From Candidatus Abyssobacteria bacterium SURF_5 (GTDB lineage Bacteria > Abyssobacteria > SURF-5), in assembly GCA_003598085.1 (NCBI GenBank), contig QZKU01000108.1:1-17974 (forward strand): 17,974 nucleotides of DNA, given 5' to 3'. Below, piece after piece: positions 10,540-17,974 of this stretch. Both the position numbers and the translations under genes were made by a program. The number at the start of each line of letters is the position of its first letter. The first letter of the stretch is position 1. The notes below the pieces were generated by a model that did not search any database, was not told the DNA's origin, and saw only the letters and a list, made by a program, of their open reading frames with translations.

Positions 10540-11571
10540 CTACCTGTTCTTTTTATGCGTTTGAAAGAGATATAGATATTTTCCATATCCTTCTTTTTCC
10601 ATGTCTTCTTTTGGAATGAAACGCAGAGCCGCGGAATTCATGCAGTAGCGAAGGCCGGTCGGGGGCGGGCCGTCATCGAACACATGGCCCAGGTGCGAGT
10701 CGCCGCGCTTGCTCCTCACCTCAGTGCGTTTGGTGAAAAGCAGCTTCCTGTCGTCTTTTTCGACGATGTTCTGGGGCTCGAGCGGCTTGGTGAAGCTGGG
10801 CCAGCCCGTCCCCGAATCGTACTTGTCGATGGAACTGAACAGCGGTTCTCCCGATACGACATCCACGTATATGCCCTCGCGCTTGTTATCCCAATATTCG
10901 TTGTCAAATGGCGGTTCCGTTCCCTCATGCCGGGTGACCTCGTACTGAAGCGGTGTCAGCTTCGCTCGCAACGTGGCCTCGTCCAGCTTTGGGCGCCGCT
11001 GCGCTTCGTCCAACCGCGTCTCCTCCGGTTTCGGGCTCCACGCTTTTTCAATGAATTCGTCTCGGCCGGAATGATGACGGTACACCTTGTATCTCAATGA
11101 ATGCGTGTCGTAATAATCCTGATGATAGTCCTCGGCCCGATAAAAGTTGGTGAAGGGCCTGATTTCGGTGGCTATCGGCCTGTCAAATCTGCCTGACTTG
11201 TCAAGGGCTTCCTTTGTCTTTTCCGCAAGCCGCCTTTGCTCCTGATCATGATAAAAGATCGCGCTGCGGTATTGGCTGCCGCGATCGACAAACTGCCCAC
11301 CCGCATCTGTCGGGTCTATTTGCTTCCAGAAAACCTCAAGCAACTGCTCATATGAGACTCGCGACGGATCATAATATACCTGAACGGCCTCGACGTGGCC
11401 CGTTGTACCTGATGTAACTTGCTCGTACGTGGGATTTTCCACGTCTCCTCCCGCATAGCCGGAAACCACATCCTCAACCCCCGGCACCTTCTCAAAATCG
11501 GCTTCCACGCACCAGAAGCAGCCGCCGGCAAATGTCGCCTTTCTTAAAACCTTCTTTTCCTGTTCAGCCAT
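10540..11571 (-). CDS. msrAB: fused peptide methionine sulfoxide reductase MsrA-MsrB
   Basis: A 343-residue two-domain repair enzyme. The MsrA domain (about 10-170) reduces methionine-S-sulfoxide and has the G-G-C18-F-W-C21 active site, SGYAGG and G-H-V-E-A-V. The MsrB domain (about 200-325) reduces the R epimer, with [14 protein letters not shown] and the catalytic C310 in RYCMNSA. C18, C21 and C310 are the only cysteines, so the zinc-binding CxxC pairs of many MsrBs are missing (the first is Y-V-D-V-V-S-G) and MsrB has no resolving Cys of its own. This is the pattern of A-B fusions, where recycling must use another thiol. The start is ATG 11571, with GGGAGGAAAG directly upstream. No signal peptide, so cytoplasmic. 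Thioredoxin is the family's usual reductant. Confidence 0.95.
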
Positions 11572-11603
11572 CTTTCCTCCCTTAGAATCCGAAGTTTCTC
11601 GGC

Positions 11604-11619
11604 ATATATTCCAATATAT
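11604..11619. promoter_or_regulatory. AT-rich inverted repeat upstream of msrAB
   Basis: ATATATT, CC, AATATAT: 7-base arms 33 bases upstream of the msrAB start, overlapping where a -10 element would be expected (TATATT on the minus strand). No good -35 was found. It may be an operator or chance. Confidence 0.25.
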
Positions 11620-11697
11620 TTTGCGGTCTTGGCCAGAAATGGGCAAGCTTGGTAATCCTTCTCCTGGCTTTCCGGCAGCGCCTCCCCCGCAAGATCA

Positions 11698-12432: not shown

Positions 12433-12795
12433 TCAGACGCTTACCACCTTTGACGCCGACACAAGTATTTGAGAAATCTCCCTCATGTTGGATCCTCTGC
12501 CCACACGTTGCTTTTCTCTCAACTGAAAGAAATCCAGACAGGTTCCGCAGGCAAGAATCTGGATGTTCCTCTTTTCCAGCTCCCGTAGGGTCTCCAGAAC
12601 ATCCGTACTTTCGGTAGCCAACTTGACGCCGGAATTCATCATGATCAAGAAATCCGGCGGATCATCAGAAATACTTAAATGATGGAGAAAATTCATCATC
12701 AAATTAGCGCCAAGTTCATCGTTCCCACGGCCGATCGTTTCCGAACAGATCAAGACTGCCACTTTCCCTGTTTCACCTGATCGCTCTTCTTTCAT
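12433..12795 (-). CDS. DsrE/YedF-like sulfur-relay protein (lacking the TusA domain)
   Basis: A 120-residue protein equal to the C-terminal DsrE-like domain of YedF-type 'selenium metabolism' proteins. Conserved blocks: V-L-I-C-S-E-T-I-G-R-G-N-D-E-L-G (14-29), M-N-S-G-V-K-L-A-T-E (53-62), the C-G-T-C pair (C83, C86), and V-G-R-G-S-N-M (98-104). Full YedF proteins have an N-terminal TusA/SirA domain of about 75 residues; it is absent here and not found upstream. Such proteins are thought to carry sulfur or selenium as persulfide on the cysteine. ATG 12795 is preferred over an in-frame TTG at 12816 because AAGGA lies between them. Divergent from the ODP-cyclase gene, with a separate promoter. 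Confidence 0.85.
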   Translation of the reverse strand: MKEERSGETGKVAVLICSETIGRGNDELGANLMMNFLHHLSISDDPPDFLIMMNSGVKLATESTDVLETLRELEKRNIQILACGTCLDFFQLREKQRVGRGSNMREISQILVSASKVVSV

Positions 12796-12860
12796 TCGTT
12801 TTGATTTCCTTCCCAATTATAAGACGGATCACCAGGCTATTTCGTTCCTGATGCTATTGT

Positions 12861-12979: not shown

Positions 12980-14605
12980 ATGAAGAAACTCGACGACTCG
13001 AATGCCATAGAGGTTGCTGATGGCCTGTGGTGGGTCGGATTTGCGGATTACGAGGCCGGCTTTTCCAATAATCCCTACCTTCTGATAGACGGAGATGAGG
13101 CGGTGTTGTTCGATCCCGGGCCGGGCCACCCCCTGTTTCGAGACATCATTCTCCAGAAGATCGAGCAAGTGACTTCTCCCGAGCACATTCGATACCTCGT
13201 CGTCCACCACCAAGACCCCGATCTGTGCGGCTTGATTCCCCTGATTGAAAACGCCCTGCATCCCGACCTCGTTATTATGGCGCATCCACGCACGGCGCTT
13301 TTCGTCCCCTACTATGGCGTTCGGAAAGGCGTTTTGCCGCTGGGAGACGGGGATAGTTTGGAACTGAAGTCGGGCCGGAAAGTTGTCTTTTTCCACGCAC
13401 CTTACCTCCATTTCGCCGGGAATATTATGAGTTACGACACTAAAACCTCATCCCTTTTCTCCGGCGACGTCTTCGCAGTCTTCAGCCGCGAATGGAGCCT
13501 GTATGCCGACCGCTCCTACAAGGAACTCGCGCGCGACTTCATTGAAAATTACGTGGCCGCCAGAGAACCGGTTCTTTATGCTTACGAAAAGATAAAGACA
13601 TTCAAAATTGATCGCATTCTCCCCCAACATGGAGGAATCATCGAAAAGGATATCGATGTCTTCCTCCAATTGCTGCAGGAAGTTAATCCCGGTCGGCTCA
13701 TCGGGGAATTACGCAACAAGCCGACAACCGCCCAAACCCGCGCCCTTTTCTCAAGCGGAAAAGAGTGGCTGGAGTACTGGCTAAAAAAGGAGTTGGACGC
13801 GCATTCTCTTGATGAACTCATGAAGGTGGCGATAGAGGAAGGACCTTCGACTATCTCGCTTCTCATCGATTCAATCTCAAAGAAAGCGAAGGAGTTGGGT
13901 GTCGCTAACCCCTTGACCTATAGCCAGGTGCATCGCTGGGATACCATTTGGTCCTCCCAAACCGCCCCGATTCTGGATTCGATCCGCAGGCGCTTCTTGA
14001 GCAGGCAGTACAGCCTGCGCTCGGGGACAGACCCTCTTGTGGACGTGTTGAAGCAGGACCTGCAGGCATTCAAGACGAGTGTGGTCGTCATGTTTGTAGA
14101 CATCCGCGGTTTCACGCAGTGGAGCGCCGAACGCGCCCCCGCCGAGGTCGTAGAGACGCTGAACCGGCAGCACGAAATCATGGCGCGGATCATCAACTCG
14201 AGCGGCGGCAGGGTCAACAAGATTCTGGGCGACGGAATTCTCGCCTACTTCCCTGAGCAGAAGCTTCAGGAGAGTCTCATCGCCGCCGAAAAACTCCAGA
14301 GCGCGGTCCAAAAAAACCACCTTCTGCCCATCGGCATCGGCTGCGATTCCGGCGAAGTCATCATGGGGGATATCGGTCAGGAGGCAAGGCTCGACTACAC
14401 GCTGATCGGATCGGTTGTAAATTTCGCCTCGCGGATGTGCAGCAGCGCGGGTAAAGGCGAAATCGCCTTCAGCCAGCGCTTGCTTTCCAGGGTGGATGCA
14501 GCGATCGTGGAAAAAATCCTGCATTCCTACTCCTCCAAGACAATCCGCGCCAAAGTGAAGCCGGGCGATCCCGAAATTGAAGGAGTCGTGCTGCAAAGGA
14601 GATAA
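12980..14605 (+). CDS. ODP (flavodiiron-like MBL-fold) sensor fused to class III nucleotide cyclase
   Basis: A 541-residue, soluble, two-domain signalling protein. Residues 1-235 are a metallo-beta-lactamase fold of the ODP type (oxygen-binding diiron protein, related to flavodiiron proteins). Candidate metal ligands are H77, D79 and D81 (H-Q-D-P-D), H144, D163 (F-S-G-D) and H217 (P-Q-H-G-G). A helical linker (240-355) leads to a class III cyclase domain (365-541): metal aspartates D374 (FVDIRGFT) and D418 (KILGDG), purine-site K414 and T474, and transition-state N481 and R485 (V-V-N-F-A-S-R). All catalytic positions are present, and Lys/Thr fits subclass IIIb adenylate cyclase. The inferred job is making cAMP in response to O2, NO or peroxide bound at the diiron site. 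Start ATG 12980 has AAAGGCGG upstream. There is no membrane segment. Confidence 0.88.
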   Translation: MKKLDDSNAIEVADGLWWVGFADYEAGFSNNPYLLIDGDEAVLFDPGPGHPLFRDIILQKIEQVTSPEHIRYLVVHHQDPDLCGLIPLIENALHPDLVIMAHPRTALFVPYYGVRKGVLPLGDGDSLELKSGRKVVFFHAPYLHFAGNIMSYDTKTSSLFSGDVFAVFSREWSLYADRSYKELARDFIENYVAAREPVLYAYEKIKTFKIDRILPQHGGIIEKDIDVFLQLLQEVNPGRLIGELRNKPTTAQTRALFSSGKEWLEYWLKKELDAHSLDELMKVAIEEGPSTISLLIDSISKKAKELGVANPLTYSQVHRWDTIWSSQTAPILDSIRRRFLSRQYSLRSGTDPLVDVLKQDLQAFKTSVVVMFVDIRGFTQWSAERAPAEVVETLNRQHEIMARIINSSGGRVNKILGDGILAYFPEQKLQESLIAAEKLQSAVQKNHLLPIGIGCDSGEVIMGDIGQEARLDYTLIGSVVNFASRMCSSAGKGEIAFSQRLLSRVDAAIVEKILHSYSSKTIRAKVKPGDPEIEGVVLQRR

Positions 14606-14773: not shown

Positions 14774-17005
14774 TCAGATCCTTTTCTTCCTGAGAGCGAA
14801 GCGATACAGCACGAGGGAAGTTCCGAGCGTCAAGCTGAGAAGCATTCCCAGCCCAACAAAACTGGGCGCCTCTAGCGCAAGATCGCACGTCCAGATCACG
14901 GGCATCAAAGTTGTCCTCGTTGCCGCCCTCAGAATCTCATGACGTGCAATTACATCGGCAATCGCCGGGCTGTAATGGTAATACAGCCGAACAAAGATTC
15001 GCCCGATATCGTTCGACAACAGGTACGCATCTCTGAATTGTCTGAGGATGACTACATCGGCCGCCATCGGCGAACCGAACGCCGCGGTTGCGATGAAGCA
15101 GTCATCATCGTCATCGTCACCAACCTGCTGCGGAGTGACGAGCTGTAGCCCGTCGGTTAGATGGCTCACACACAACTCGACTGCCGGCTGCCCGGTCTCG
15201 TCCGGGAATGCCGCATGATCGATTCTCTCCACCAGGAATCCATCGCCGACAAAGGCTCTTTGCCAGCCGGTTCCGACGGTGAAACGCCATACCTCCAGTG
15301 CTTGCGGATTCGTTCCCGCAGGAAGCAGGAGCACCAGCGTTGCGCAATCCTCAGGGAGCACCATCGGCGGCTGCAGACTGACGGGCTCGGCGAATCCTCT
15401 CACACCGAACGGCAGCGGAGCGAGACCGTCCACCGGACCAAAGAACGGGCGGGGTATCAAGGTTACGGGAACCACCAGGAACGAGCCTGAGAGCGTGCCG
15501 TCAAGCAGTGTGATGATGACAAATTCGTCCTGCATTTCCACGACTTGCGGCGGCAAGACCGGCGCCGTGTCCTCTATGTTGAAGCGGTATGAGCCGTCGG
15601 CGAAGTACGTGGCGGAATTCGCCCGAGCGTCACACGCATCAACAACAACCTGCACCGTCTGCCCCATCGGCAGCCCGGAGCCGAATGTGGTTTCAAAATC
15701 CGGAACGAACGTCACCCACACATCTCGGGCGTTCCCGTCTTCCACCATTCTGAATCTGGTTTCCCCGGCAATCGGTTCCAGAGTTTCTACGCCGCCGTCG
15801 GTATACACGAGGAACGCATTGACGGCGGTGCGGCATGTCGGGTCTGCCAGCGCTACCGCTGTGTCGTCAAAGAGTCTTACGCAGATAGTGGTGAACACAG
15901 ATGCGGGAAAGTTGTCCACGATTCCCTGTCCGGGGAATGGATGAAGGTCCTCCTCAATAATCACGGGCGCATCGAAATCTTCGCAGGATTCATCGACGAG
16001 TCCGTCGCAATCGTTGTCGACGGCGTCGCCGCAGATTTCGGTCGCTATCGGATTAATGAGGGGATCATGGTCGTTGCAGTCCACGTCCGAAAAAAAGCCG
16101 TCGCCGTCTTCGTCCACCGGCGCGGCGCAATCGGGATCGGCCGCATCCGTCAACCCGTCGCAATCGTTGTCCATCAAGTCGTCGCAGACTTCAGCCGCGC
16201 CCGGGTTCACCAGCGGATTCGTATCGTCGCAATCGACGTCGGAGAAGAACCCATCGCCGTCCGCATCGATCGGCGGCGCTCCGCAATCCGGATCGAGGAG
16301 ATCGACAAATCCGTCGCAGTCGTTGTCAATTCCATCATCGCATTTTTCAGCCACGCCCGGGTTGACGAGCGGATCCGTGTCGTCGCAGTCTCCGCCGCCG
16401 GCTCCTGGACTCGGGTTGCACAAGGCATCCTCGAATCCGTCGCCGTCCGCATCGGCGCATCCGGGACCGCCAACAACCTCAAAGGAATTTGTCAGAGTGA
16501 GTTCCTCGCCGTGATTCAGTGTTTCATTGCCTACATCAAACAATGCGCCATACCACGTGACCGTCCACCGGTAGACTCCGGGAGTGGCCGGAGCGGGGGC
16601 GGAAAGCATTACCGGAAACTGCAAGCCCGGGAAGCCTCCGTCATCGCCCGTCTCCGTTGGGCCCGTTACCCGGTCAAGTTCTCGATAACTCCCTCCGCCA
16701 AGATCCTCATAAAGAATCGCGCGAATCCAACCGGTCCTATACCCGCCGGTAAAAACCACGTTTACCGTTTCGCCGGCCGTATAGAGGGTCTTGTCGGTCG
16801 TGGCCGTCAGATTCATCACTGTCCGGGACTGATCCTGCCAGACACCGTGCGCGTGACACCCATTGCACGTCGGCGTGTCGTTCGAATGGCATGACGCACA
16901 ATGCAACCCGAAAAGCTCCGATCTGGCAAGCGCGGGTTGTGGAATCAGAAACAGCAGGGCCATCAACCACAGAAAGAGAATCAGGACGTAATTCTTAGTT
17001 CTCAT
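14774..17005 (-). CDS. secreted MopE-like repeat protein with two haem-binding motifs and CFI-box C-terminus
   Basis: A 743-residue exported protein. A signal peptide (1-28, ending A-L-A) is followed by two c-type haem motifs, CASCH (36-40) and CNGCH (47-51), with extra histidines. A beta-rich domain with a G-V-Y-R-W-T-V strand follows. Then come three MopE-type repeats of the form C-D-D-T-x-P-L-V-N-P plus D-N-D-C-D-G, rich in D-x-D-G-D-G calcium-type loops, at about 180-345. A second beta-rich part leads to an acidic run (six Asp), a CFIATAAFG box (636-644), a helical region and a C-terminal membrane helix ending R-K-K-R-I. This CFI-box tail is typical of surface proteins in deltaproteobacteria and relatives. 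A role as an outer-surface electron carrier or metal binder is inference. GGAGG six bases before ATG 17005 fixes the start. Confidence 0.85.
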   Translation of the reverse strand: MRTKNYVLILFLWLMALLFLIPQPALARSELFGLHCASCHSNDTPTCNGCHAHGVWQDQSRTVMNLTATTDKTLYTAGETVNVVFTGGYRTGWIRAILYEDLGGGSYRELDRVTGPTETGDDGGFPGLQFPVMLSAPAPATPGVYRWTVTWYGALFDVGNETLNHGEELTLTNSFEVVGGPGCADADGDGFEDALCNPSPGAGGGDCDDTDPLVNPGVAEKCDDGIDNDCDGFVDLLDPDCGAPPIDADGDGFFSDVDCDDTNPLVNPGAAEVCDDLMDNDCDGLTDAADPDCAAPVDEDGDGFFSDVDCNDHDPLINPIATEICGDAVDNDCDGLVDESCEDFDAPVIIEEDLHPFPGQGIVDNFPASVFTTICVRLFDDTAVALADPTCRTAVNAFLVYTDGGVETLEPIAGETRFRMVEDGNARDVWVTFVPDFETTFGSGLPMGQTVQVVVDACDARANSATYFADGSYRFNIEDTAPVLPPQVVEMQDEFVIITLLDGTLSGSFLVVPVTLIPRPFFGPVDGLAPLPFGVRGFAEPVSLQPPMVLPEDCATLVLLLPAGTNPQALEVWRFTVGTGWQRAFVGDGFLVERIDHAAFPDETGQPAVELCVSHLTDGLQLVTPQQVGDDDDDDCFIATAAFGSPMAADVVILRQFRDAYLLSNDIGRIFVRLYYHYSPAIADVIARHEILRAATRTTLMPVIWTCDLALEAPSFVGLGMLLSLTLGTSLVLYRFALRKKRI
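15980..16462 (-). repeat. MopE-type coding repeats in the haem protein gene
   Basis: Three tandem coding repeats of roughly 45-53 codons rich in GAC/GAT and TGC codons; short exact nucleotide matches such as the codons for F-F-S-D-V-D-C recur between units. They create a long false open frame on the plus strand. Confidence 0.8.
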
Positions 17006-17295: not shown

Positions 17296-17974
17296 TTATT
17301 TTTTTCTCCAGATCCTCCAGAATTGACGCGGCGAACGTTCGCATTTGTCGTCATCGTCATCATCGCGTTCGTCATCGTTTTCATCTTCATCATCATGAAC
17401 GTTGTCGTTTACTACTGTTAAAAGCCAGACCTCCTCACTTTCCTCGACGACTATCGGACGTACATCCCCGTCAGCGCCTCTCACTCTCCAGTAAATAGGA
17501 GTGTCTTGCGGCGCTTTCGCCCAGATCGTTGACGGCAGGGTGAATGAAGTCGTCTTCAGTATCGGAGAATGCCACAAAAACGCCGTGAAATCCGGATCAA
17601 GTGAAAACTCGAGACGGAAAGTATCGGCGGTTTCGGCCGACCATTCGAACGTCGGAAGCTCCCGTATCACGGCGCCGTCTGCAGGCTCGAGCAAGTGAAT
17701 TTCAGACGGCTGAGCAATGGTGCAATCGGAATCGGCTGCGTCAACAAACCCGTCGCAGTCATTGTCGATGCCGTCGTCGCACACTTCGGGTGCGCCGGGA
17801 TTGACTGCGGGATTGGTGTCGTCACAATCCGCATCAGCGGCATAGCCGTCGCCGTCCGCGTCCACCGGGGGCGGTCCTTCGCAATCTGGATCGGCTGCGT
17901 CAACAAAGCCGTCGCAGTCGTTGTCGATGCCGTCGTCGCACACTTCGGGTGCGCCGGGATTGACTGCGGGATCG
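17296..17974 (-). CDS. MopE-like D/C-rich repeat protein, 5' end beyond the window
   Basis: The last 226 codons of a longer gene; the frame is open to the right edge. Visible first are two MopE-type repeats: D-P-A-V-N-P-G-A-P-E-V-C-D-D-G-I-D-N-D-C, then D-x-D-G-D-G and a second copy. They are followed by one beta-sandwich (about 95 residues, with L-L-E-P-A-D-G and F-E-W-S-A-E marks of fibronectin-III-like or bacterial Ig-like surface domains) and a very acidic tail (D-D-E-D-E-N-D-D-E-R and six Asp) ending K-C-E-R-S-P-R-Q-F-W-R-I-W-R-K-K. Unlike its neighbour it lacks the CFI box and membrane helix. Probably a secreted calcium-binding surface protein; the function is unknown. Any signal peptide or haem motifs would lie outside. 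Confidence 0.8.
   Translation of the reverse strand, partial: DPAVNPGAPEVCDDGIDNDCDGFVDAADPDCEGPPPVDADGDGYAADADCDDTNPAVNPGAPEVCDDGIDNDCDGFVDAADSDCTIAQPSEIHLLEPADGAVIRELPTFEWSAETADTFRLEFSLDPDFTAFLWHSPILKTTSFTLPSTIWAKAPQDTPIYWRVRGADGDVRPIVVEESEEVWLLTVVNDNVHDDEDENDDERDDDDDDKCERSPRQFWRIWRKK
17765..17974 (-). repeat. 159-base near-identical coding repeat reaching the window edge
   Basis: The 48 bases at 17765-17812 recur exactly at 17924-17971, a period of 159 bases (53 codons); flanking bases differ by only a few third-position changes. The array continues out of the window. Confidence 0.85.

Follow-up and report, generated by a model that had tools for sequence, protein, structure and literature searches.

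Does the gene at positions 12980 to 14605 of the window (the whole 17,974-nucleotide stretch of DNA analyzed, which is an entire contig of its genome) encode an oxygen sensor that controls cAMP synthesis within one soluble chain? A first-pass annotation had read it as an ODP-type metallo-beta-lactamase (MBL)-fold domain fused to a class III cyclase, and Pfam confirmed that fusion (PF19583 and PF00211). Considering its residues, its relatives, and its genomic setting, we propose that the protein probably works as a genuine, if rare, soluble switch that links oxygen/iron to cAMP.

Architecture of the fusion protein

The gene is a single continuous open reading frame (ORF) with an ATG start. Its 541-amino-acid (aa) product consists, from N to C terminus, of an ODP (oxygen-binding diiron protein) domain, a type most familiar from chemotaxis proteins, a helical linker of approximately 125 residues, and a class III cyclase domain. 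Hydropathy averaged over 19 residues peaked at 1.35, within the ODP fold, consistent with the earlier claim that there is no membrane segment, and the residues singled out in that annotation (H77-Q78-D79-P80-D81, H144, D163, H217, K414, and T474) were all at the positions given. The main parts of the gene are as follows.

12980..14605, + strand: whole gene of the ODP-linker-class III cyclase fusion, 541 aa (ORF, translation, Pfam)
13064..13633, + strand: ODP domain, metallo-beta-lactamase fold, aa 29-218 (PF19583, profile match, model alignment)
13685..14065, + strand: helical linker, aa 236-362 (helices predicted; conserved among fusions)
14075..14488, + strand: class III nucleotidyl cyclase domain, aa 366-503 (PF00211; CyaB 3r5g and other cyclases)

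Identity of the sensor domain

The PF19583 match covered aa 29-218 (E = 1.7e-46; 159 bits versus a curated cut-off of 27.2), but flavodiiron proteins can also pass this cut-off, which makes the match alone insufficient for ODP identity. In a profile search, the nearest solved chains were ODPs (6qrq, E = 1.1e-37; 6qnm, E = 5.2e-30), with flavodiiron proteins ranking behind. By their entry titles, the nearest solved structures are the ODPs of Thermotoga maritima and Treponema denticola, and one of the entries, 6r9n, captures the peroxy-diiron state. The model built for aa 1-370 (m9a5d5b38eea8; mean pLDDT 66.2, with higher values across most of the ODP part, which was usable) aligned to the zinc-loaded T. 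maritima ODP 6qwo with a Z score of 23.9 (221 residues, 3.0 Å) and to 6r9n with a Z score of 22.9. Flavodiiron chains aligned to the model nearly as well (Z within about 1 of 6qwo), so it is the residue pattern, not the fold, that decides ODP identity. An AlphaFold model of the full-length chain, for which four sequences were used, was of low quality (mean pLDDT 58.8).

13208..13222, + strand: metal motif H77-Q78-D79-P80-D81 (HxDxD), shared without change by the two solved ODPs and the seven fusions whose site is intact
13409..13411, + strand: predicted metal ligand H144, aligned with a His of the solved ODPs
13466..13468, + strand: predicted metal ligand D163, from alignment with solved ODPs and fusions
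13625..13630, + strand: Q216-H217, the ODP-specific Gln and the last His, within a PQHG motif found in both solved ODPs

Residues H77, D79, D81, H144, D163, and H217 agree one by one with ligand positions of the solved ODPs. Where the window protein has PQHG, the flavodiiron proteins compared have PSHG (PGHG in that of T. maritima), and where it has HxDxDL they have HxExDH. According to a review of the superfamily (PMC7785958), ODPs lack the third His of motif 2 and have a Gln at motif 5 in its place; judged by position, this Gln should be Q216 here. The first-pass ligand list was correct in its His and Asp positions and overlooked the Gln.

These differences bear on whether the protein could be an O2- or NO-reducing flavodiiron-like enzyme that became fused to a cyclase by chance. 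Such an enzyme would share the fold and the general homology to flavodiiron proteins, but we consider this reading highly improbable given the HxDxD and PQHG motifs, the lack of a rubredoxin domain, and the presence in the same genome of a separate, ordinary flavodiiron protein (L049). The Pfam scan also detected no flavodoxin domain after the lactamase domain, and the fusion therefore has no built-in electron route of the flavodiiron-reductase kind. Judged by its residues, the metal site is of the ODP type, and identity as a flavodiiron reductase was rejected on the motif and the missing flavodoxin domain.

For the window domain, iron and O2 chemistry is presumed by analogy with the solved ODPs. 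Within that chemistry, Fe(II) occupancy itself could be the signal, with O2 having only an indirect effect: ODP structures have been solved both apo and metal-loaded, and the title of Muok 2019, as cited elsewhere, names ODP an Fe(II) and oxygen sensor. However, the peroxy-diiron form in 6r9n places O2 chemistry within reach of the site, and we regard a sensor of iron status as unlikely.

Cyclase domain and linker

PF00211 (Guanylate_cyc) matched aa 366-503 at E = 5.9e-16 (59 bits versus a curated cut-off of 21.9), and the domain matched CyaB 3r5g (E = 4.3e-15) as well as other cyclases.

14099..14101, + strand: predicted cyclase metal ligand D374 (alignment with cyclases and fusions)
14219..14233, + strand: K414 (purine-specifying) to D418 (second metal ligand), by alignment
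14399..14434, + strand: T474 (purine-specifying) with N481 and R485 (transition-state pair), by alignment with cyclases and fusions

Six catalytic residues are in register with other cyclases, namely, D374 and D418 for the metals, N481 and R485 for the transition state, and K414 and T474 for purine choice, so that the complete metal and transition-state set claimed earlier was borne out. The position of K414 is occupied by Glu in chain 2w01, which we take to be a guanylyl cyclase, and ATP is therefore the likely substrate of the window cyclase. A Lys/Thr pair at the purine-specifying positions is a mark of class IIIb adenylyl cyclases, and its presence here agrees with the subclass proposed in the first-pass annotation. 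Bicarbonate activation is common in class IIIb but not universal, and bicarbonate control of the window cyclase is a weak guess from subclass, with the K/T pair as its sole basis. Taken as a whole, the first-pass interpretation held for the ODP identity, the ligand set, the adenylyl-cyclase-type residues, and the soluble conserved fusion, and was weak in the bicarbonate idea.

The segment between the GDG and GIG motifs distinguishes these cyclases. Its length is 39 residues in the window protein, and the other measurable fusions have about 39-42, versus 53 in four measurable ordinary cyclases, two of which are from the window's own genome. A GDG-GIG segment shorter by approximately 14 residues is thus a mark of the ODP-cyclase family.

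The linker had been described as helical, and helices were indeed predicted at residues 250-268, 277-287, and 289-306 (block-mean pLDDT about 67-90); residues 314-370 were poorly predicted in the models. No Pfam or NCBIfam match was found for aa 236-362, a stretch that is conserved among the fusions, though less so than the ODP half.

Distribution of the fusion

The same three-part protein was recovered in about ten other genomes across phyla, far beyond chance. Full-length homologues were found in Ca. Abyssubacteria SURF_17 (a family-mate), Chloroflexota, Spirochaetota, and one further genus, with identities to the window protein of 70% (SURF_17), 54% (a Thermoflexales MAG), and 52% (a Spirochaetales MAG). 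The phylum of the Spirochaetales MAG also contributed L034, L036, L035, L037, and L038, among which L035 and L037 have an open frame without the first part of the ODP, and L115 and L116 are fusions in two genomes of that further genus. In a Victivallales MAG, the fusion is split across two contig ends. A frame or assembly artifact was ruled out by the continuous ORF in independent genomes.

The fusion is rare wherever phyla were sampled, being present in 6 of 392 genomes sampled in the Spirochaetales MAG's phylum (where one further match was a fragment), 1 of 400 from that of the Thermoflexales MAG, and 1 of 288 from that of the Victivallales MAG; two of the three members of the window's family carry it. 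Viral contigs contained single-domain relatives only, with neither a fusion nor a flavodiiron protein, and plasmids yielded no full-length match to the fusion. Such rare, scattered occurrence would fit either horizontal spread or extensive loss, and it no more than suggests horizontal transfer.

Conservation and natural variants

The ODP half is the best conserved, with 83, 66, and 63% identity to the window protein in SURF_17, the Thermoflexales MAG, and the Spirochaetales MAG, respectively; the corresponding values are 63, 56, and 50% for the cyclase and 61, 37, and 39% for the linker. All seven ODP ligand positions and all cyclase residues are kept in seven fusions (the window protein and six others, from at least four groups). 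H144 is kept in every fusion except those of a degenerate Spirochaetota branch, the members of which carry H77Q, D79R, H144Q, and D163T or I together with an intact cyclase residue set. A second variant combines D81N in its ODP with two changes at the cyclase metal site, D374N and, adjoining the second metal ligand, G417E; its cyclase is probably inactive or altered.

L035 946-2511, + strand: ODP-cyclase fusion with lost metal site (residue alignment)
L037 964-2529, - strand: ODP-cyclase fusion with lost metal site (residue alignment)
L038 952-2646, - strand: ODP-cyclase fusion with lost metal site (residue alignment)
L115 and L116, 838-2496, + strand: ODP-cyclase fusions with D81N, D374N, and G417E (residue alignment)

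Could the ODP then be a structural or dimerizing scaffold, with regulation coming from elsewhere? The degenerate branch retains the domain with four ligands gone, and L038 still matches PF19583 at E = 2.4e-31. Against this stand the ligand positions that are identical across at least four groups and the rank of the ODP as the most conserved region of the fusion, and a pure scaffold seems improbable to us. As read from the alignment, the metal site is under constraint in most family members but not in all. Since the ligands have been lost in side branches, not every family member should be called an O2 sensor; the relatives lacking metal ligands or the cyclase metal ligand offer ready negative controls for signal passing by the ODP.

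By eye, the protein adjoining L038 resembles a methyl-accepting chemotaxis protein.

Genomic and cellular setting

Near the fusion gene, the window encodes the following.

10540-11646, - strand: MsrA-MsrB fusion, near the ODP-cyclase gene
12433-12816, - strand: weak DsrE-like gene, in divergent orientation to the fusion gene
14774-17005, - strand: protein containing several copies of MopE-type metal-binding motifs, adjacent to the fusion gene (PF11617)
17296-17943, - strand: second protein with repeated MopE-type motifs (by eye)

At the SURF_17 locus, visual inspection suggests a leucyl-tRNA synthetase and an FGGY-type kinase as neighbors. No neighbor is common to the window and SURF_17 loci, and no conserved operon partner ties the fusion gene to an O2 response. 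Elsewhere in the window genome, we identified four further Guanylate_cyc matches and eight cNMP-binding matches over the cut-off, several with a GE...RSA cassette; the CRP-like L045 has HST in place of RSA. On sequence grounds, these cNMP-binding proteins are candidate cAMP effectors.

The host had been supposed to be an anaerobe, and its relatives are described as mainly anaerobic. Ca. Abyssubacteria genomes carry nar and qNOR, with cytochrome c oxidases undetected (PMC6121073), which makes O2 traces and NO both plausible stimuli. This gene content would suit a nitrate-reducing anaerobe in which NO binding at the diferrous site controls cAMP, and related flavodiiron proteins are NO reductases. 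However, no NO-specific feature was seen in the window protein and the characterized ODPs are described as O2/Fe sensors, so that we find an NO sensor quite unlikely.

Proposed mechanism

The reading that we favor, and hold to be reasonably likely, is a soluble one-component Fe(II)/O2 switch for cAMP. In a soluble dimer, each ODP domain would bind two Fe(II), and reaction of the diiron site with O2 would give a peroxo or diferric state. This change at the metal site would reach the paired cyclase domains by way of the helical linker and alter their rate, so that the amount of cAMP made from ATP would change and the nucleotide would act on the cyclic-nucleotide-binding proteins of the cell. Supporting this switch are the ODP family match with its ODP-specific ligands, the complete cyclase residues, the architecture conserved across phyla, and the candidate effectors in the genome; the ruined metal site of Spirochaetota L035, L037, and L038 and the D81N and D374N changes of L115 and L116 speak against universal metal sensing. 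The computed evidence fits O2, Fe(II), NO, and peroxide alike as the input, and the coupling of sensor to cyclase, and its sign, we only infer. Bhr-DGC of Vibrio cholerae, in which a diiron domain gates a nucleotide cyclase under a redox control that has been tested, is active when reduced (PMC9388753), and by analogy it is slightly more likely that the reduced, anoxic form of the window protein would be the active one.

A broader reading is plausible though tentative: these proteins may form a family of soluble cAMP switches in distant bacterial groups, with an MBL-type diiron site sensing O2 (or Fe(II) and O2) and with side branches that lost the metal site and turned to another input. If the Fe(II)/O2 switch is true, non-heme O2 sensing would be coupled directly to cAMP, an unusual input in anaerobic and deep-subsurface bacteria. 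Since the chain is soluble and self-contained, a single purified protein would let both sensing and output be followed, which is not possible with the chemotaxis ODP.

Comparison with known systems

The first-pass annotation had stated that ODPs occur attached to signaling outputs, which three lines bear out. The T. denticola ODP has a role in chemotaxis and acts with a chemoreceptor (PMC7666581); Muok 2019, as retold in PMC7319448, described in general terms ODPs that are fused to signal-transduction domains; and we found an ODP-GGDEF fusion (L012). In the literature searched, outside which the full text of Muok 2019 lay, no paper named ODP together with adenylate cyclase. ODP fusions to signaling domains are thus already known in general, and the cyclase-fused form is a variant on that theme.

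L012 1498-3141, + strand: ODP-GGDEF fusion, c-di-GMP counterpart
L013 1192-2223, - strand: stand-alone ODP bearing an additional tail that is probably helical
L013 546-1103, + strand: small protein beside that stand-alone ODP, resembling a globin-type sensor domain (by eye)
L051 2414-4258, + strand (IMG/VR contig): lactamase domain resembling ODP (motifs HEDPD and PQRG), with a DHH-type-looking phosphoesterase after it (by eye)

With the ODPs of T. denticola and T. maritima (PF19583; 6qnm, 6r9n, 6qrq, and 6qwo), the window protein shares the fold, the HxDxD...H...D...QH pattern, and the lack of a flavodoxin domain; unlike those stand-alone chains of approximately 250 aa, its ODP has a fused cyclase output. 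Flavodiiron proteins (ROO, FprA, and flavorubredoxin) have the same metallo-beta-lactamase diiron fold but differ in their Glu and second His (HxExDH), PSHG, flavodoxin domain, and reductase function. The class IIIb adenylyl cyclases (CyaB, 3r5g) share the catalytic residues and the K/T pair, but have a different sensor, and the GDG-GIG segment of the window protein falls approximately 14 residues short of that in the ordinary cyclases used for comparison. In L012, an ODP domain with the same ligand set likewise precedes a linker and a nucleotide cyclase, although the linker is dissimilar and the output is a diguanylate cyclase. Bhr-DGC also joins a soluble diiron sensor to a nucleotide cyclase within one protein, but its hemerythrin is an unrelated diiron fold and its GGDEF output makes c-di-GMP rather than cAMP.
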